From positions 1 through 30,849 of IMG/VR virus record IMGVR_UViG_3300027872_000022: a stretch of 30,849 nucleotides of DNA. The stretch is one strand, 5' to 3'. The DNA comes from a virus. The notes below the pieces were generated by a model. That model had not been told where the DNA came from and did no database searches. It saw nothing but the letters and a program-made list of their open reading frames with translations. A program made the position numbers and the translations under genes. Positions 14,117 to 23,469 of the stretch are shown here, piece after piece (positions within the stretch are counted from its first letter, which is position 1; each line of letters starts with the position of its first letter).

Positions 14117-14378
14117 CGGCTTTCTATTCCACCGCTGGACGTACGACTACACGTGCGGTCGGTGTGGGATCACCGGGCACGTCCGGGGAAGCCCATCCTC
14201 CGAGAAATGGGCGGACGACCTGTCTGAGTCTGCATTGCTCTCGCCAGCCCACCCTGTTGATCGGCAGGTCCAACACGATTCCCACCAAGATTTCCTCGAC
14301 GCTGCATCGACTGCTTCTGCTGGAAGCCACGGAACGGCATCGCTCGACCTCCCGGCATTCTTGCGTCGTCCGGTCTAA
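14097..14378 (+). CDS. Small Cys/His protein convergent with the virion operon
   Basis: GGAGG lies six bases before the ATG, which is 20 bases inside the HAD-like gene. The first 35 residues contain Cys5, His12, Cys20, Cys23 and His27 (YTCGRCGITGH), a plausible single zinc site. From about residue 25 on, the frame runs opposite the end of the minus-strand gene at 14170 and is Ser/Ala/His-rich. The total is 93 residues. The N-terminal portion looks protein-like, and the rest may simply be open by chance against the other gene. The function is unknown. Confidence 0.45.
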   Translation: MDAKCTDGFLFHRWTYDYTCGRCGITGHVRGSPSSEKWADDLSESALLSPAHPVDRQVQHDSHQDFLDAASTASAGSHGTASLDLPAFLRRPV

Positions 14379-16179
14379 GCATCTCGGGGCGACCTCCCGG
14401 CATGCCACCCGGTCCACCCGGCTGCACACGACCACCCATACCCGGACGAGGCTGCGGACCACCTAGCTGCTTCATCGGACCACGCATCCCCGGTGCCACC
14501 ATGCCACGACGACCACCACCTCGTTGCTGCGCCATCTTCTGACGCATCATGTTCATCATCTGCGGATTCGGACGTCGCGCATCGTTACCGCGCATCGGTG
14601 ATCGTCGTCCACCCGGCATACGTTGCGGTCCTCGACCACGGAAGCCACCTCGTGTTGGACGTTGCATCGCAGCTTGCATCTGAGGGGAGCCTCTCCTGCC
14701 CATCGAACCTCGTTGGCGTTGCATCGCCTGTGCCAGTCCACCCGCTTGCATTTCCAAAGGCTCCTCCTCCTCGATCAGTTGTGGTGCTTCTGTGTAGAAT
14801 CCTGGCGTGCCACCGGCAACGACGTTGCCACCACCCCCACCACCGCTAAGGATGTCAGACACCCTCGCCTTGTGCTGTCGTAACTGTTCACGTTGGGGCG
14901 ATTGTTTCCCAGCCATCTCGGGGTAGGCAATCACCTCGCGCAGCTGGTCCTGCTGTTCACGTTGCTGGTTCCACCCCTCGTACTCTGCTCGTGCAGGGTC
15001 GTCTGCAGGCAAGTGTGCAAGTGGATCTTCCTTCATCGCCTCCTGCGAGGTGCGGTCGTAATTTGTCCACGTCGGATCGATGATGCCGTACTTGTTGTAG
15101 ATCTCTTCAGCGATGGAGCCTGGATCGAAGTCAGTGCCGGTGCGCGTGCTGGGTTGAGGAATTGCATAGCCACCAGCTCGTGTTGCATCTTCCAATCCAC
15201 CCACAGGTTCCAGCGCACTGAGTCGTGTGCCCGCCTTCTGTCCGATGTTGTAGAGCATGTTGCTGAACATGCCTGTCGGTTCCATGGACCCGTACTGGTT
15301 GTAGATCTGAAGCAGTCCTGCCTTCTCCTTTTCCTTTTGGGCAGCTTCATACTCAGCCAGTTGCTCAGGTGTCATCCCTTGTTTCTTCGCCTTCTCGATC
15401 ATCTCAGCGAGACCACCGAACTGATACCCTTTCACTTTCTTGTCAGCAGCAACGAACTCCTTCGCTACGGCACGTGACGGTCCGCCACCGGGCTTCTTCC
15501 ATCCGTGTGCAACAGCTCGCATGAGCTTCGCCTGTGCTGGTGATTTTGATGGCACTCTTCCACCCTCCGCGTTTCCCGTAGGTTTCATAAACATGTGTTC
15601 CATGCCCTTCAGTCCGTAGCTGTACGGATCATCCAGAGCACTGAAACGTCTCAGCAGACCTTCCGCCTGTCCCAGGTGCTCTCCCGGTCCACTTTGAAAG
15701 CCCCTCACAACATCAGTCAAGCCACCGGGTTCGTCCATGCCTGATGCATACGCTGTCCCCAACTTCGTTGCAGTGCCAATAGCTGTCTGCGTTGCAGGTG
15801 CTATCGCCGCACCACTGGCGGAACTTGCAGCGGCTCCTAATCCCGACGCAGCTGCGCCTCCACCGATAGCTCCAGCGATCATCCCTGCTACATCTTGCAC
15901 TTGCTTACCGGGACCGATGTCGATCCCTTCTGACATTGCTTGCTGGTAGTCGTGCGCAGTTGCACCACCCAGCTGATTAACTAACGCACGGTCGTCTCGG
16001 TTGAGGATCTTGTTCCACATCTTGGTGCTGAGTGGATCGACACCCAGGATCAAACGCTTCGGATCGTCCTTGAGCCCCTTCCACAGATTTTTGAAGTGCG
16101 ACTTCTCAAACTTCAGTACCTTCTTGAGGAAGCCACCGAGTCCGAGATGTGGGTAAGCTTGTTCAGGTCCGGGGTGCAT
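14170..16179 (-). CDS. Probable virion/ejection protein with long RG/M-rich tail
   Basis: The product is 669 residues. Residues about 96-145 are Gly/Ala-rich and hydrophobic, as in membrane-active ejection proteins. Residues 213-258 hold SPAQAKLMRAVAHGW followed by AVAKEFVAADK and YQFGGLAEM, a module I recall from many phage structural proteins. Residues about 280-445 are charged and helical. Residues 478-669 are low complexity, rich in Arg, Gly, Met, Pro and Gln (GGFRGRGPQRMPGGRR), with QAGGLAQAMQ and QQGGLARAMQ at their borders. It is the last gene of the leftward operon, and GGAGG precedes its start. An RNA- or DNA-binding disordered tail is likely. Exact virion location is unknown. Confidence 0.7.
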   Translation of the reverse strand: MHPGPEQAYPHLGLGGFLKKVLKFEKSHFKNLWKGLKDDPKRLILGVDPLSTKMWNKILNRDDRALVNQLGGATAHDYQQAMSEGIDIGPGKQVQDVAGMIAGAIGGGAAASGLGAAASSASGAAIAPATQTAIGTATKLGTAYASGMDEPGGLTDVVRGFQSGPGEHLGQAEGLLRRFSALDDPYSYGLKGMEHMFMKPTGNAEGGRVPSKSPAQAKLMRAVAHGWKKPGGGPSRAVAKEFVAADKKVKGYQFGGLAEMIEKAKKQGMTPEQLAEYEAAQKEKEKAGLLQIYNQYGSMEPTGMFSNMLYNIGQKAGTRLSALEPVGGLEDATRAGGYAIPQPSTRTGTDFDPGSIAEEIYNKYGIIDPTWTNYDRTSQEAMKEDPLAHLPADDPARAEYEGWNQQREQQDQLREVIAYPEMAGKQSPQREQLRQHKARVSDILSGGGGGGNVVAGGTPGFYTEAPQLIEEEEPLEMQAGGLAQAMQRQRGSMGRRGSPQMQAAMQRPTRGGFRGRGPQRMPGGRRSPMRGNDARRPNPQMMNMMRQKMAQQRGGGRRGMVAPGMRGPMKQLGGPQPRPGMGGRVQPGGPGGMPGGRPEMLRPDDARMPGGRAMPFRGFQQKQSMQRRGNLGGNRVGPADQQGGLARAMQTQTGRPPISRRMGFPGRAR

Positions 16180-16751: not shown

Positions 16752-18856
16752 CAGTCCAACATCCTACCCAATGATTGCGTCACGTCTTCCATCTTCTCCA
16801 TGCCGTAGTCACCCAGACCACGCAAGTACTCCATGCCGTAGTCGCCCAAGTCTTTCATCATCTCCTTGTCGAACTCGATGTCAGGTAACTCAGGGGGACC
16901 ACCTTCTTCGAGGTACTGGTTCTCCGCAGCGACAACGTAGCCGCGAAGCTCCTGCATGATGGCTTGAGATTTTGTGGGGTCACCTTTGGCATACACCAGC
17001 TTCAAAAGCCCGTTACGGATCGGCGCGCTCTGAATGACTCGCCCTGCGAGTGCCGAGGTTGCAGCTATCCCCCACAAACCATTCAGGACAGCGAGTCCGA
17101 CAGCAGCGCCACCACCCATCGCAGCAACCATGCCCGAACCCTTACCTGTCTGGGCAGCTAACGAAGTGATCCGCATATACTCACGAGCCCCTTCGAGCAA
17201 CTCTCGTTCACCTTCGTCGAAGAAGACATTCAACATCTTCTTGTTCTTAGGATCGCTGAGGTACTTCACGAAGCCATCCGGATCAGCGATCTGCGGAGCG
17301 TCAGGAGTCCAACCTGCTTTCTCCAGTCCCTTGGTGAGGAAGCGCTGCTTCACTGCTTGCTTCCCTTCGGGCATCAGCTTGTTAAACAGATCATCGATGC
17401 GTTTGGGCACGCCTTGATCTAGAACACGCTCAACGATCTCATCGTCAAGGTTGCCTTGTCGCAGTTGCTTAGCTATCGCAGCGTCAACAACCTGCTCAGA
17501 TTCCTTCACGTATGCACGTTCAAGCAGCTCTTGTGCCTTCGCCGCAGCTTGCCGATGTTCATGCGGTCGCGTGACTTGTGAGGGCCAGTTTGCCGGGTCC
17601 ATGATCTCCTTGTTCTTACCCCAGAAGCGTTGCTTGACCATCCGCGTAATGAAATTGTCAGCGATGTCTTGACCCAGCTCAGTCTCGATGTCGATGCCGT
17701 ACTTGTTAGCGATATCGATGAGTGCATCTGTTCTCGCTGCTTTCTGTCTGATTCTCTGACGACCGATACCTGTGATCGGGATACGCTCAATCGTTTTTAT
17801 GAAGATATTTTGGATAGGACTGATGTACTGCGAGAGAGCATCGGAGGTGTAGATTTTCCGCCCCGTTGACTCTGCATAATCCAGTGCTTGCTGGACACCT
17901 TTGGGTACAACATCAGCAACCTTCCCTATCAGCTCCTTGCCTTTGGTAATGACGTTCGTCAGTGGCTTCACGAGGTGCTCACCCACCTTGCCTGCGACTG
18001 CAGTGAACGCAACGTCTTCGGGATCGAACTCGCCACCCGGCACCGCTGCGTGACCTGCCTCAATCCCTGCTTGAGTGGCACCGAAGGTGCCTGCAGCTTG
18101 GTAGCTCGCTCTACGAACAGCTGCTTTCTCCAGCTGCTGACGCATCGTTGCACTGGCTACTCTAGGCAGCACTGTCTTCACACCCATCGATGCAACTTTA
18201 CCTGCGGGTGTGAACAAAGCACCCAGTCCTAACATCTGCAGTGCGTCCATACCGCTCATGCCGGGACGGTTGATGAGCCCACGTGCACCGGTCTCGTTGT
18301 TGGTCGCGATGATCGCACCGTCCGGTGCATAGCTGATGCCAATGACATCATTAGAAACTGCCTTCAACATGTTCGCGATCTCTTGCGGATCCGTCATGGT
18401 CATCGCAGCTGCTGAGATGGCAGCTCGCTGCCCAACGGTAAGCGTTGCACCTACACCACCACCAGTCTCTTCTGTGGTACGTTCCGGTCCTACCTGCGGA
18501 GCATCACCACCCAGCATCGGTGGCACGAACATCTCGCCCAGCTCCTGCGATGCACGCGACGTCCCCGGCTCCTCCGGAAACTCACTCGGGAACTGTGCCA
18601 GCGGGTTTGCCAGTGGCTGATCCGTCTGCGGTTGAAACTGCGAGAAGGGATCGTCTCCCTGGAATTGGTCAAAGGGGTCTGCCTCAGCAAACGAAACGTC
18701 TGGCTCAGGGAGTTGCTCCTCTACTGCAGCCTGTTCTACTTCAGGTGGGATCTCCCCCGGTGCGTACCCTTGTGCCATCAGCGCTTGGTCTTGCGCCTGC
18801 ATCTCAGCCTGCATACGGAGGAGATCTTCCTCTGTCGTGTAGTCAGTCTCAGCCAT
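16751..18856 (-). CDS. Probable internal virion / DNA ejection protein
   Basis: The product is 701 residues. Residues 1-130 are acidic, Gln/Pro-rich and probably disordered, with repeated DPFDQF and DPFSQF. The middle is a long helical region (LEKAAVRRASYQAAG, KELIGKVADVVPKGVQ, RAYVKESEQVVD). Residues about 575-605 are Gly/Ala-rich and hydrophobic, long enough to cross a membrane. The C-terminus has a tandem 11-residue repeat, LGDYGMEYLRG then LGDYGMEKMED. This build, acidic leader, helices and a late membrane segment, is common among podovirus internal proteins that enter the host envelope with the DNA. There is no lytic transglycosylase motif. The start overlaps the previous stop (TAATG). 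Confidence 0.65.
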   Translation of the reverse strand: MAETDYTTEEDLLRMQAEMQAQDQALMAQGYAPGEIPPEVEQAAVEEQLPEPDVSFAEADPFDQFQGDDPFSQFQPQTDQPLANPLAQFPSEFPEEPGTSRASQELGEMFVPPMLGGDAPQVGPERTTEETGGGVGATLTVGQRAAISAAAMTMTDPQEIANMLKAVSNDVIGISYAPDGAIIATNNETGARGLINRPGMSGMDALQMLGLGALFTPAGKVASMGVKTVLPRVASATMRQQLEKAAVRRASYQAAGTFGATQAGIEAGHAAVPGGEFDPEDVAFTAVAGKVGEHLVKPLTNVITKGKELIGKVADVVPKGVQQALDYAESTGRKIYTSDALSQYISPIQNIFIKTIERIPITGIGRQRIRQKAARTDALIDIANKYGIDIETELGQDIADNFITRMVKQRFWGKNKEIMDPANWPSQVTRPHEHRQAAAKAQELLERAYVKESEQVVDAAIAKQLRQGNLDDEIVERVLDQGVPKRIDDLFNKLMPEGKQAVKQRFLTKGLEKAGWTPDAPQIADPDGFVKYLSDPKNKKMLNVFFDEGERELLEGAREYMRITSLAAQTGKGSGMVAAMGGGAAVGLAVLNGLWGIAATSALAGRVIQSAPIRNGLLKLVYAKGDPTKSQAIMQELRGYVVAAENQYLEEGGPPELPDIEFDKEMMKDLGDYGMEYLRGLGDYGMEKMEDVTQSLGRMLD

Positions 18857-20157
18857 TAGATATCAACCCCCTTCTTACGCAGCGCAGAAATTATTTCTGG
18901 AGAGGGGTTCCCAAACCTCCCCCGGTACGTCTCAAGTAATTCAGGAGTGTAGTTGTTGATCAGGTACTGATTGGAGTCCGGAGTTGGAACTTCTTTCTCT
19001 GCAGCCTGCTCCACCTGCTTCATCTCTGCTGCCGCAGCCTGTTCGCTGCGGAACTGTCGGAACCTTTTAACTGAGAGATCAGTCTTTGGATCCCCTCTAT
19101 CTTGTGCTCTCTGCAGTGCTGCATCTTCCCCAAAGCCAATCATATTTTCATACCGCTTCAGCATGTCATCGATGATTGCAAGGTTGGCTTCTTTACCCTT
19201 CGCAGTACTGGCATTGAGTTCCTCGATCTTCTTGTACTCGAAGTCAGTTTTGGTACCTGTCAACAAGGTCAGCTGATTCAAAACCTCAGCCCCCATGAGC
19301 CTCCGTGCCAGCTGGAAGTCTGCATTTTCACCGATTTCGATACCAAAGAACTGGGCAAGATCTATGAACTTCCCTTTAATTCCACTGGTCGATATGCCTG
19401 CGAAGATTTCACGAGCCCTCACCAACTTGTTGACTGCCAGTGTTGAGTTCAGACCCTGCTCGATCTCATGAGACCTCTTTAATGTGTCATCCCCCGCTGC
19501 TTTCTTCGCAGCCTCAGCCTCCGATACTGCGGTGGGATTGAGGTTGGACACCACCTCCAGAATCTCACCTGTTTCGAGGCCTGTGAAGATGTGCTCCGTC
19601 GTACCATCGCTGTGTACGATGGTTTGTTTTTCTATGTGCCGCCACTTCGTGGGGTCGTCTGGGAACTCAATTTGATCATCGGGGTGGTACACCTTGCTGG
19701 ATCCCCCCAGACGAGCACGTGATGCCTGCAGTAGAGTCTGCTGCTTCACCTCAGCGTCAAGAAGATCCTTCTCAATATTAGTCAGTGCCTCGCGGTGCTC
19801 TCCCCTAGCCTCTCTGACCAGACCTGCAGCAGCACCCACTGACTCACCAAAGCTACCCGTCCGTGTCGGTGCCAACATCCCTTGTGCAAGTGCGAGCCAC
19901 CGACCACTCTTATCAGACTCGATTTTGTCACGTCGCTCAACCAGACGTTGGCGTGCCTCGTCCAGTCGCTTCAGGGCTTGTACGTTAGTCATCGTCTTGC
20001 CAGCCCGACTGGACTGCGTAGGCAGATGAGCGCCTTTCTTTTCAGTCGCCTCTTCTAGTCCGCCGAGAGTTTCGGGAACTACGATGGAAGGATCATCCCG
20101 TTCGTCAGGATCTACACCCGTCGCTGCTGCCAGTCCACCTGCTTGATAATTAGCCAT
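18856..20157 (-). CDS. Probable internal virion protein with N-terminal GGLA motif
   Basis: The product is 433 residues, starting MANYQAGGLAAATG. Residues about 55-150 are strongly helical and charged (LKRLDEARQRLVERRDKI, GEHREALTNIEKDLLDAEVK), a likely coiled coil. A short beta-rich stretch follows (KWRHIEKQTIVHSDGTTEH, FTGLETGEILEVV), then more helices to the end, which closes with ISALRKKGVDI. No enzyme motif is visible. It lies between two other probable internal proteins, with overlapping starts and stops, and resembles the elongated helical ejection proteins of podoviruses. The assignment rests on context and composition. Confidence 0.6.
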   Translation of the reverse strand: MANYQAGGLAAATGVDPDERDDPSIVVPETLGGLEEATEKKGAHLPTQSSRAGKTMTNVQALKRLDEARQRLVERRDKIESDKSGRWLALAQGMLAPTRTGSFGESVGAAAGLVREARGEHREALTNIEKDLLDAEVKQQTLLQASRARLGGSSKVYHPDDQIEFPDDPTKWRHIEKQTIVHSDGTTEHIFTGLETGEILEVVSNLNPTAVSEAEAAKKAAGDDTLKRSHEIEQGLNSTLAVNKLVRAREIFAGISTSGIKGKFIDLAQFFGIEIGENADFQLARRLMGAEVLNQLTLLTGTKTDFEYKKIEELNASTAKGKEANLAIIDDMLKRYENMIGFGEDAALQRAQDRGDPKTDLSVKRFRQFRSEQAAAAEMKQVEQAAEKEVPTPDSNQYLINNYTPELLETYRGRFGNPSPEIISALRKKGVDI

Positions 20158-20345
20158 CAGTCTTCATCCTCAATCCGAACGCCGCCTCGTGCTCGGCTAC
20201 GCATGTCACATTTCTCGTACAGCTCGTTAGCAGCTCGGGCGAACCCCGGATCCTCTCGACCAGTGTTGCTCCCAGTGAGCCCACGCCACCAATCTTTCAC
20301 TCGTGTCCATCCGGATTTTGCTGCCTGCGCCAAGCCGCCCAACAT
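20157..20345 (-). CDS. Small protein with N-terminal GGLA motif
   Basis: The product is 62 residues starting MLGGLAQAAKSGW. Next come an amphipathic Trp-rich helix (TRVKDWWRGLTG), a charged middle (DPGFARAANELYEKCDMRSR) and an acidic end (RIEDED). The stop overlaps the next start (TGATG). There is no clear Shine-Dalgarno, and it lies 14 bases after the preceding gene. The GGLA motif at its second residue matches those of its larger neighbours, which supports a place in the virion or its assembly. The amphipathic helix could touch membrane. The function is unknown. Confidence 0.6.
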   Translation of the reverse strand: MLGGLAQAAKSGWTRVKDWWRGLTGSNTGREDPGFARAANELYEKCDMRSRARGGVRIEDED

Positions 20346-20359
20346 GTAGGGCTCAGCGC

Positions 20360-21481
20360 TTAAAGCTTTCCCGCAAGTGCCAAGCCCCCGTGTGCGTATC
20401 TGTTAGGTTCGAAATACTCACCGCTCTCGTTGTCGATGTATCCACCTTCAGCTTCCGTCAGACCTTTGTACGTGCCGTAGGCACCGACGATCTGCGACAG
20501 ACCTGAAGGCTGGTACACGTCTGCGGGACCGTAGTCCTCACGCGTCGTTGCTGTGCTTGTTGGCAGTCCGCGCACGATGTCCGACATGAACTTGACACGA
20601 TCCATCGGCAGGTCTCGCTGTTCGAGGAAGTCTTGGTATCCCAGATCGAGGCTGGCTTGACCCATACCGCGTCGTTGCTTACCAACCGCTTCCATCGCAG
20701 CGGCGTCACCGTAGCCTAGTTTCGATGCCATCTCACCTAGTCCACCAGCTGTCTCACCGGCTTGCAGCATGCCCAGTCCTTGCTGGACACCGAGTCGTCC
20801 GCCAGCCTCTTCAAGACCACCTCTGATCTCACCGGCTTGAAGATCTCGCGCTCGGTCTGCACCGAACAACTCACCAGCCTGACCGTAGGCACCGGACAGT
20901 GCAGCAAGGTTCTGCTCGTTGAGCCCTTCCGTGATACCCCGGACACCCTTGACACCGATGTCTTCCATCGAGCCGGTCCCACCTCGTGAGCCGAACTGAC
21001 CTGCACCTGTGAATGCCTTCTGCAGACCGGGTAAGAATTCCTCCGTGAGCTGACGTCCAGCGAGGCTAGCGTTGCGGTCGAGCACGTGCTGGATGTAGGG
21101 GTCCATGTACTGCCCGACTTGTCCGGGGAAATCTTGAGCACCTTCCGCGAGGTATGGATCTGCTACGCCACGAGGATCGTAATCTTGAGAGAATTCGTCC
21201 AGCCCACCACGTACACCTTCAGCACCTGCTTCAAGCCAGGGCTGATAGGCACCGACGTTCTCTTCGGCCAGACCAAAGGAAGCTTCTTCCTCCGGAGCGA
21301 ACGGCGCGATGCGCGGACCACCGTAGGGGATGTAAGGCTCCGCTGCTGCAGCGTTCGCTCTCGCGATCAGACCCTGCGTGTAATCGGACATCCACTTCGG
21401 GACGTTTTCGATAGTCTGCCCGTAGGTGGTGACCGACTTGGGCGGCTTACCTTCGAACAAGAAATCAGTGACGCTGCCCAT
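20360..21481 (-). CDS. Phage virion-associated protein ending in HGGLALAGKL
   Basis: The product is 373 residues. The N-terminus MGSVTDFLFEGKPPKSVTTYGQ leads into MSDYTQGLIARANAAAAEPY and GGPRIAPFAPEE, which I recall as the opening of a family of phage structural proteins without assigned function. The middle has Gly/Ala/Gln-rich repeats (LQAGEIRGGLEEAG, LQAGETAGGLGEMA) likely to form helices. The end has FEPNRYAHGGLALAGKL. GGAGG lies upstream of the start, which overlaps the previous stop. Context places it among ejection or core proteins. There are no membrane segments and no enzyme motif. Confidence 0.65.
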   Translation of the reverse strand: MGSVTDFLFEGKPPKSVTTYGQTIENVPKWMSDYTQGLIARANAAAAEPYIPYGGPRIAPFAPEEEASFGLAEENVGAYQPWLEAGAEGVRGGLDEFSQDYDPRGVADPYLAEGAQDFPGQVGQYMDPYIQHVLDRNASLAGRQLTEEFLPGLQKAFTGAGQFGSRGGTGSMEDIGVKGVRGITEGLNEQNLAALSGAYGQAGELFGADRARDLQAGEIRGGLEEAGGRLGVQQGLGMLQAGETAGGLGEMASKLGYGDAAAMEAVGKQRRGMGQASLDLGYQDFLEQRDLPMDRVKFMSDIVRGLPTSTATTREDYGPADVYQPSGLSQIVGAYGTYKGLTEAEGGYIDNESGEYFEPNRYAHGGLALAGKL

Positions 21482-23469
21482 CAGGCGTTCCCTCCTATCG
21501 CTGGTCTATTTGGCTGCACGGGAGTGGTCCCACCTACGTTGCTCAGACCTCCGTGTTCGTACTTCATCGTGCGCCTCAACTTCTTGACTTTGTTCATGTA
21601 AGCGGTGGGCTTCTTCGCCTTGTGCGTGAACTCACCACCCTTCATCTTCGCCGCCTTGTGCTTGCGCAGCTCCTGACGCATCTCGTCGAGCCGTCGTGCG
21701 CCTTCCGATCCAGATCCATCACCAAGCAGGGAGACGGACTCAGCATCGATGACGTACTCCCCGTCGCTTAGATACGCTGGGATATCGTCTGATCGACCTG
21801 AGCCCGGACCCTGCACATGATGACCTCCTTCCCGACTGACCGTCGGTGCTGCGTTGGATACATCTTGATTCTGTTCCCAGTAGTCGAACTCGCCACCACG
21901 CTGGTAGCCACCGTGTGCAACAAACTCAGCTGGCAACTGCGGACGTCCACGCGGAGATCCTACGTTAGCAACTGAAGCGCCTGCAGGTGGCAGCATGCTG
22001 TTGGTCCCGATGTCGAACGTCCAGCCCTGAGTCTCCATCTCACGTCTCTTGATCTGCCCCTCTCGACCCGGAGGTAGCGGCATTGCCTGAGGTCCAGTTG
22101 CCCCTGCACCCGCTGCCAGAGGGCTCGTGTCACCGGGGAATGGATCCGGCTTCAGGAACAGATGCTGCCCGCTCTGAGGCGCACCCGCTTGACCGTAGGT
22201 GAAGTACGACTGCGGGTCCATCCCCCGAAACTTTCGATTCATCTTGAAGACTGGCAGCGTCTCGGTGAACTCAGCTGGCAGCTGCGGACGTCCCTCATCC
22301 TCGTAGTCACCCGAACTCGCTGCGCCCAGAGTAGTCAAGCCAGCCAGTGCAGGCATCGCGTACTTACCTGCCAGATCCATCAGTTGCTGAGTTCTAGTAG
22401 GTGGCGCAGCTGCAGGAGTCGCCAGCGGGTCCGTGGTGGGTGCAGGGCTAGCCGTCCGGGCAACACGCCCCGGATCGGCTCCAGCTAGGATCTCCTGTCC
22501 CGTCACAGGACGATCTAGGGTCGGGGTGTACTCGTCACCCCCTGCATCGATACCGGGGTCAGGAGGCGCTGTGCGGCCCTCACCGGCAGCTATGTACCGT
22601 CCAATTGCCGTCTCGCTCGCAGGCTTCATGCCCAGAGCAGAGCGAGCATCCCTGCTGAGCTGGTCTTGTGTTCCACGTGTCGCCGCGCCCAGCCCGCCCT
22701 GAATGGCACCTTCGACGAAGTCACCACCGGTCAGTGCGGAGCCTGTACCCTGGATCACAGCGCTGCCTACGGCTTCGGCAGTCTTGCTGCCAGCTTCGAG
22801 ACCTAGCTTCGCACCCACGGTAGAGCCGTACGCGCCAGCAGCAGCGCCCAGACCACCAGAGAGGGCTCCCTTGAGTGCTCCTTCCTTGCCACCGGTCACG
22901 GCACCCAGTCCACCCTGCACGATAGCGTTGCCTGCGATGGATGCCATGGCACCACTCATGCCCAGCTTCATGCCAATGGCAGTCCCGATCCCCGGCATGA
23001 AGATCGACAGTGCGATAGGAGCGATCATCTTGAAGACCGGCGACTTGACGATTTTCTTCACACCCTTTTTGATCTTCTTCCACACCTTGGAGAGGAAGCC
23101 GTACTCACCGATGCCGGTCTTCGGGTTGATGTCTGGCTCACCCCACATCGCACTGATCGCTTCGTACTCCTCAGGGCTCATGTGGAGCATCATCGAGTCG
23201 TCACCGCGACCTGCAGCTCGGGTCTTCTCAGCAGCGCTGGCAACACCACCACGTGCCTTGTGTACCGACCCACCGATGCAGTAGAGCCTGATCTTCTTGG
23301 CATCCTTCTTCTCGACACCCTGCGCCTTCATCATCTCTTCGGCTGCGACGGTGTAGAGCAGCTCCGGACCTCCAGGCACCAGCTCGATTGCGCGAGCGGT
23401 GTCGATGAGTTCTTCCGACCCGCCCTGCTGAGCGAGCATTTGTGCGAGTCCACCTTGGGGTGCTGGCAT
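21481..23469 (-). CDS. Large virion protein with Gly-zipper region and SDDIPAYLSDGEYV module
   Basis: I chose the ATG at 23469 (MPAPQGGLAQML) because GGTAGGAA lies just upstream. The frame is open to 23562 without a ribosome site. The product is 662 residues. Basic helices (WKKIKKGVKKIVKSP, about 112-126) lead into a long Gly/Ala-rich hydrophobic stretch (about 130-260), probably membrane-active. A Pro-rich linker follows, with two copies of GRPQLPAEF. The C-terminal module has GSGRSDDIPAYLSDGEYV and ESVSLLGDG...GARRLDEMRQELRKHK, an element I recall in many phage structural proteins. Near the end is YEHGGLSNVGG. It is likely an ejection or internal core protein. Confidence 0.7.
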   Translation of the reverse strand: MPAPQGGLAQMLAQQGGSEELIDTARAIELVPGGPELLYTVAAEEMMKAQGVEKKDAKKIRLYCIGGSVHKARGGVASAAEKTRAAGRGDDSMMLHMSPEEYEAISAMWGEPDINPKTGIGEYGFLSKVWKKIKKGVKKIVKSPVFKMIAPIALSIFMPGIGTAIGMKLGMSGAMASIAGNAIVQGGLGAVTGGKEGALKGALSGGLGAAAGAYGSTVGAKLGLEAGSKTAEAVGSAVIQGTGSALTGGDFVEGAIQGGLGAATRGTQDQLSRDARSALGMKPASETAIGRYIAAGEGRTAPPDPGIDAGGDEYTPTLDRPVTGQEILAGADPGRVARTASPAPTTDPLATPAAAPPTRTQQLMDLAGKYAMPALAGLTTLGAASSGDYEDEGRPQLPAEFTETLPVFKMNRKFRGMDPQSYFTYGQAGAPQSGQHLFLKPDPFPGDTSPLAAGAGATGPQAMPLPPGREGQIKRREMETQGWTFDIGTNSMLPPAGASVANVGSPRGRPQLPAEFVAHGGYQRGGEFDYWEQNQDVSNAAPTVSREGGHHVQGPGSGRSDDIPAYLSDGEYVIDAESVSLLGDGSGSEGARRLDEMRQELRKHKAAKMKGGEFTHKAKKPTAYMNKVKKLRRTMKYEHGGLSNVGGTTPVQPNRPAIGGNA

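Follow-up and report, generated by a model that had tools for sequence, protein, structure and literature searches.

The capsid targeting sequence (CTS) of bacteriophage T4 is N-terminal and is removed by the prohead protease. It is the only conserved part of the T4 internal proteins (PMC3012670). The ejection proteins of T7 make contact with one another through terminal segments: the N-terminus of gp14 lies in the gp15 dome, and gp16-N has been proposed to stitch gp15 (PMC8954989). The sorting, counting and packing of ejection proteins in short-tailed phages are poorly understood beyond T7 and P22. Here we describe a short peptide motif shared by four probable ejection or internal proteins (p18856, p20360, p21481 and p14170), and a predicted -1 frameshift at the end of the p20360 gene, in a 30,849-nucleotide stretch of viral DNA (IMG/VR record IMGVR_UViG_3300027872_000022, positions 1 to 30,849; "the window" means this whole stretch). 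The window carries a virion operon of 17 proteins on the minus strand. Its relatives form a group of uncultured short-tailed phages; p21481, p27287 and the small terminase served to collect them from viral contigs, giving 124 loci in total including annotated phage records; designations such as L022 or G001 refer to these relatives. Taken jointly, a conserved motif, a programmed -1 frameshift cassette and an uncleaved docking peptide make up a reading to which we assign a probability of about 0.5.

The GGLA motif and its conservation

A conserved motif, approximately [YF]-[QA]-x-G-G-L-A, lies near the termini of p18856, p20360, p21481 and p14170 or within their unstructured segments, and GGLA is its most frequent form. 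The four proteins and the copies of the motif in the window are as follows.

18856..20157, minus strand: p18856, probable ejection protein of 433 amino acids with the motif in its N-terminal tail
20360..21481, minus strand: p20360, probable ejection protein, 0-frame product of 373 amino acids ending RYAHGGLALAGKL
21481..23469, minus strand: p21481, probable ejection protein; likely start at the ATG at 23469 (MPAPQGGLAQML)
14170..16179, minus strand: p14170, low-complexity protein rich in Gly and Arg that has three GGLA copies
20128..20139, minus strand: GGLA copy in p18856, residue 7 (MANYQAGGLAAATG)
20328..20339, minus strand: GGLA copy inside the predicted frameshift extension (residue 3 of p20157; EPYMLGGLAQAAKSGW)
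20378..20389, minus strand: GGLA copy near the 0-frame C-terminus of p20360 (residue 365 of 373)
23443..23454, minus strand: GGLA copy at the p21481 N-terminus (residue 37; residue 6 if the start is the internal ATG at 23469)
21541..21552, minus strand: GGLS copy near the p21481 C-terminus, residue 671 (KYEHGGLSNV)
15406..15417, minus strand: GGLA copy in p14170, residue 255 (GYQFGGLAEM)
14731..14742, minus strand: GGLA copy in p14170, residue 480 (MQAGGLAQAM)
14242..14253, minus strand: GGLA copy in p14170, residue 643 (DQQGGLARAM; relatives DQQG[G/A/S][L/M/F][A/S]RA)

All copies named in a preliminary description of the window were found where it had placed them, and the motif is commoner than composition predicts: GGLA occurs seven times in the virion-operon proteins against 0.59 expected in residue shuffles (0 of 2000 reach it) and 1.24 in dipeptide-preserving shuffles (0 of 300), with none in the early genes. 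It also tops all 4-mers by the number of virion proteins sharing it (five). Because 11% of dipeptide shuffles share some 4-mer among at least five proteins, the window alone is only suggestive after correction for the look-elsewhere effect. Conservation nevertheless excludes chance arising from composition or look-elsewhere: homologues that share only 18-45% identity elsewhere retain the motif at the corresponding termini, and it recurs in phages that were not used to define it.

Across the group the fuller form of the motif was [YF]-[QA]-x-G-G-[L]-[A/V] and its core [YF]-x-x-G-G-x-[VA]. Around GG dipeptides of the ejection block, Y was enriched 3.8-fold at -3, with Q or A at -2, L or Y at +1 and V, I or A at +2, a pattern that differs from that in other virion proteins. 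In four near-complete relatives, the density of [YF]..GG.[VAILMS] per 1000 amino acids was 5.5 in p14170, 3.9 in p20360, 3.1 in p21481 and 2.4 in p18856, and 14.0 in a small basic protein that starts MxKNVGLTYVKDFSFPAEQG, compared with 0.26 in all other proteins (a contrast of ~10-50-fold). The excess persisted when it was expressed per GG dipeptide (0.09-0.31 vs 0.03). All synonymous codons are used at the motif copies; since codons vary freely, selection acts on the peptide, and a DNA-level repeat or recombination signal was ruled out.

In p18856 homologues, whose mean column identity is 18%, N-termini include MAEPQGGLAAV, LQQGGLAAALTG and RYQSGGLAEV. Column conservation was 0.93 at G7, 0.89 at G8, 0.79 at L9 and 0.75 at A10, vs 0.38 over the rest of the 57-residue tail. 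AlphaFold2 gave residues 1-57 a predicted local distance difference test score (pLDDT) below 50, which predicts disorder, and a helical core; the motif is a conserved island within this predicted disordered tail. In homologues that have the motif (close and distant pooled), an acidic stretch follows it, with 28% D/E over the next 20 residues vs 16% overall. The N-termini of p21481 homologues read MPQGGLAQVLEQ and PVKGGLAAMLAE; the second glycine is invariant (1.00) and the leucine nearly so (0.94), and the first position is G, R or P. At the other end of p21481, the deepest conserved form is Y[ML]xGGx[AV], which extends to cultured Caulobacter phages (YMDGGRV at the extreme end). The tails of p20360 in relatives include YQLGGLARAAG and YGIGGLATAAW, and in 30 homologues conservation reached 0.93 at Y362, 1.00 at G365, 0.90 at G366 and 0.87 at L367. 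Homologues of p14170 end DQQGGLARALQ, the second glycine being A or S in some. In newly found distant phages, [YFW]..GG was present at the N-terminus of 6 of 17 p18856 homologues (0.47 expected) and at the C-terminus of 14 of 24 p20360 homologues (3.5 expected).

The literature searched for the motif and for conserved strings next to it yielded nothing relevant. We conclude that the motif is real, conserved and, as far as the literature was searched, undescribed.

A small Lys/Gly-rich protein, encoded at G001:C1:40003-40599 (L127:2003-2599, minus strand) and with counterparts in G002-G004, holds 3-6 copies of YxxGGx[VI]. The G001 protein has the highest motif density of its genome; it has no PHROG match and no Pfam match above the curated cut-off.

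The 3' end of the p20360 gene

The best-supported new result concerns the end of p20360, where the elements below were located.

20366..20372 (read 20372-20366), minus strand: slippery heptamer G_GGA_AAG in the zero frame, 13 nucleotides before the end of the p20360 open reading frame (ORF)
20327..20359, minus strand: predicted stem-loop stimulator with a 10-base-pair stem, spaced 6 nucleotides after the heptamer
20157..20345, minus strand: "p20157", 62 amino acids as a standalone ORF, probably the distal part of the -1 extension of p20360
20157..21481, minus strand: p20360-fs, predicted frameshift product of 372 + 69 = 441 amino acids with two GGLA copies

Comparison of relatives strongly supports a programmed -1 frameshift that joins p20360 and "p20157". 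In E. coli the heptamer G_GGA_AAG shifts very readily (PMC5009743), and Kuravirus capsid genes use it as their slip site (PMC9965538). Each of 14 distinct short-form p20360 genes, that of the window included, carries an in-frame GGGAAAG, GGGAAAA or CCCAAAA no more than 46 nucleotides from its end (at 13, 25, 37-40 or 40-46 nucleotides) and is followed by a -1 extension of 46-81 amino acids; the background rate of the three heptamers is 0.00025 per codon in pooled genes. These extensions match tails that 16 relatives encode in frame, with E down to 1e-27. In the long-form relatives L037, L026, L034 and L003 an in-frame GGGAAAA lies 118 nucleotides before the end of p20360, and a -1 slip there would produce a short form (C-terminus TGSGRVE or similar), which inverts the window's arrangement. 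In L028 the GGGAAAA string is out of frame, as expected for a repaired fusion.

A predicted stem-loop follows the heptamer in two lineages. In that of the window, 40 of 40 pair cells were kept across four sequences, with one compensatory G-C/A-U pair and no slid register above 45%. In the second, the stem begins 5 nucleotides after the heptamer and kept 66 of 68 pair cells, again in four sequences, with two compensatory pairs and no slid register near this value. A search of 20100-20700 against Rfam gave no match.

Several findings count against the frameshift as described. For the extension of the window itself the match to the in-frame tails is weak (E = 0.003) and depends on the intermediates L022, L031, L093 and L222, and two relatives within the group, L006 and L007, have neither heptamer nor tail. 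The window fold taken alone is no stabler than shuffles (z -0.36), and no significant stem-loop was found in the three CCCAAAA sequences or in two GGGAAAG ones (L031, L093). With four sequences per stem, weak shuffle controls for the first stem and a window fold no stabler than shuffles, the stem-loop is supportive and not conclusive. A direct comparison of p20157 with the in-frame tails was suggestive (HMMER E ~0.001; hhalign probability 65%).

We also considered that p20157 might be an independent small gene read from its own ATG, the heptamer being incidental. The ATG is present in the window and in L002, but L001, L022, L031 and the groups with GGGAAAA or CCCAAAA lack it at that position. 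The p20157 frame is open upstream of the ATG (ALSAEPYMLGGLAQ), and from the heptamer onward it is open in all sequences. With three different heptamers placed where the frames must join, and the tail in frame in sixteen relatives, a separate gene is very improbable.

Given the frameshift, the GGLA copies at 20389 and 20339 would lie in a single protein, and MLGGLAQA would thus not be a natural N-terminus, as the preliminary description had taken it to be. Its statement that four neighbouring proteins share the motif while being otherwise dissimilar needs a matching correction, as two of the four are probably one frameshifted protein. Such a product is missed by ordinary ORF calling, in which it shows as a truncated gene and a tiny spurious gene. 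A literature search on ejection proteins and frameshifting, judged by titles and abstracts, returned no described case.

The p20360 homologues of L255, L260, L266, L271 and L281 end abruptly soon after the conserved core and lack the tail motif; no heptamer was found in the last 75 nucleotides of these genes. Another form of recoding or gene loss is possible in these phages.

What the motif may do

The likeliest function of the motif, in our view, is that of a docking peptide of the ejection core. Most ribosomes would make the 373-amino-acid p20360, stopping just past the first motif, and some would slip at G_GGA_AAG and add a tail of 69 amino acids, in which lie a second copy of the motif and a helical segment. 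The motif would serve as an uncleaved docking peptide made of an aromatic anchor, a Gly-Gly hinge and a short helix (LAxAM or LAxML), through which the ejection proteins could pack on each other or on a surface that the internal core or portal offers to all of them. The T4 CTS and the terminal contacts of the T7 ejection proteins are precedents for such a peptide. The fraction of p20360 subunits with the extra tail would then be set by the frameshift, much like the fixed gpG:gpGT ratio of lambda. In a more specific version, one receptor surface would read [YF]xxGGLA as a docking code common to the ejection core, and the frameshift, conserved in function while its slip site moved and changed, would determine the number of p20360 subunits that have the tail with its second copy of the motif, and with it the stoichiometry of the ejection complex. 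This version is tentative and rather unlikely.

The case for docking is weakened by the following. No binding partner or receptor of the motif was identified, and p16751, which belongs to the same gene block, has a motif density of 0 in the four near-complete relatives. The structural context also differs, the motif being a helix cap in an ordered domain in p21481 and part of a disordered tail in p18856. Loss of the motif in p18856 and in p20360 was associated across genomes (Fisher p = 0.01), but after correction for the tree co-loss fell on one shared branch (p = 0.51). Since a single receptor would predict coordinated loss and the association vanishes on the tree, coevolution with one receptor is not supported. 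Finally, the term ejection protein is itself based on synteny.

Several of these observations favour a serious rival, namely that the copies have no common partner and that a Gly-Gly pair ahead of a short helix rich in Ala and Leu makes a handy hinge and helix cap, reached convergently and kept in each place for local reasons. The rival gains from the missing receptor, from loss that is uncoordinated between proteins on the tree, and from p21481, in which the N-terminal motif is predicted by AlphaFold2 to cap the first helix of a small, ordered helical domain (the model is mostly of low confidence, with a mean pLDDT of 48). Either glycine can be replaced, and GG is frequent in these flexible Gly/Ala-rich proteins. 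Against it, the motif excess survives normalisation by GG count, the aromatic residue at -3 and L or Y at +1 are specifically enriched, and p16751, an equally relevant neighbour, does without the motif. We regard a hinge without a common partner as quite possible, though somewhat doubtful.

Proteases of eukaryotic viruses (adenovirus, asfarvirus) cut at GG-containing sites, and the terminal or inter-domain position of the motif in several proteins would suit a maturation protease that cuts at or beside Gly-Gly, as those of adenovirus or African swine fever virus do. The glycines, however, are not invariant: p21481 homologues have G, R or P at the first, and p14170 homologues have G, A or S at the second. 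Cleavage of p20360 would strip a conserved tail of 40-60 amino acids in most relatives, and cleavage of p18856 would remove only ~8 residues. Among the scanned virion proteins of the 55-kb relative G001, many of which have no family match, neither Pfam nor PHROGs recognised a protease, the sole exceptions being capsid-family matches named after fused capsid-protease families. Processing at the motif is highly unlikely, given that neither glycine is indispensable and that no protease turned up among the proteins scanned. The preliminary description had proposed a common assembly, packaging or protease-recognition signal; what survives is a conserved short motif confined to functionally linked virion proteins, which may still be an assembly signal, and the protease reading is set aside.

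Scarcely credible is mimicry of a chaperonin ligand, in which the GG-hydrophobic motif would recruit GroEL or a phage GroES to the ejection proteins: a GroES-like co-chaperonin with the mobile loop TKGGIIVPHD is encoded near the capsid gene (G001:C1:48779-49237), but the likeness is superficial, nothing in the loop corresponds to the aromatic at -3, and folding clients do not as a rule depend on a linear tag.

The ejection block and its relation to known systems

Assignment of p18856, p20360, p21481 and p14170 as ejection or internal proteins is probable and follows from synteny with the adaptor, the nozzle and, in relatives, a transglycosylase. The block adjoins the tail adaptor and nozzle genes, with PHROGs 2941 and 3287 upstream, and the position of p16751 is occupied in MW202545 and GB2A by a transglycosylase or "lytic tail protein". 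Both p20360 and p21481 are homologous to GB2A genes (E 3e-112 and 1e-80); no homology to GB2A genes was found for p18856 or p16751.

Other features of these proteins were noted. At about residues 575-612 of 693 (window 21730-21850), p21481 contains an uncharacterised C-terminal domain, GPGSGRSDDIPAYLSDGEYVIDAESVSLLGDGS, common to tape-measure PHROGs of long-tailed phages. The segment PSKSPAQAKLMRAVAHGW (phrog_16759) of p14170 is followed by RGG-rich low-complexity sequence, and judged by its sequence the protein looks like a condensing or DNA-contacting protein. A fold search with p18856 matched mainly uncharacterised phage proteins at low template modelling (TM) score. The p18856 homologue at L117:6421-7836 starts MRSTDFRNIVEPRGYQTGGLAAV, and its opening residues reproduce those of the major capsid protein, which begins MAVPMRSTDFRSIVEPIL in G001 (45606-46535), G003 and G004 and MAAPMRSTDFRSIVEPIL in MW202545.

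Like the T4 CTS, which directs proteins into the scaffolding core, the motif is the same short peptide at the termini of diverse internal proteins, "internal" here following from synteny. Unlike the N-terminal CTS, it is also C-terminal and internal, occurs several times per protein, differs in sequence and has no protease found with it. Adenovirus and asfarvirus GG-X sites are similar in that several unlike virion proteins have Gly-Gly close to an end, but in these phages the glycines vary, the residues four before the site do not fit and no protease was found. As in podoviruses of the T7 and P22 type (gp14/gp15/gp16; gp7/gp20/gp16), the proteins are encoded in a syntenic block that follows the genes for tail adaptor and nozzle, although no sequence relation to those ejection proteins was shown and, in the literature searched, no short repeated motif was found described for them. 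The motif offers a handle for finding ejection proteins in an otherwise unannotated phage group, and a testable contact.

As in lambda G/GT, T7 gene 10A/10B and the Kuravirus capsid, a heptamer shortly before a structural gene ends is predicted to yield a minor, C-terminally extended product. Unlike those cases, the gene is that of a probable ejection protein, the identity and position of the heptamer vary by lineage, and some relatives encode the tail in frame while some may make the short form by a shift. If true, a frameshift conserved in an ejection gene would bring recoding, familiar from capsid proteins and tail-assembly chaperones, into the DNA-injection machinery.

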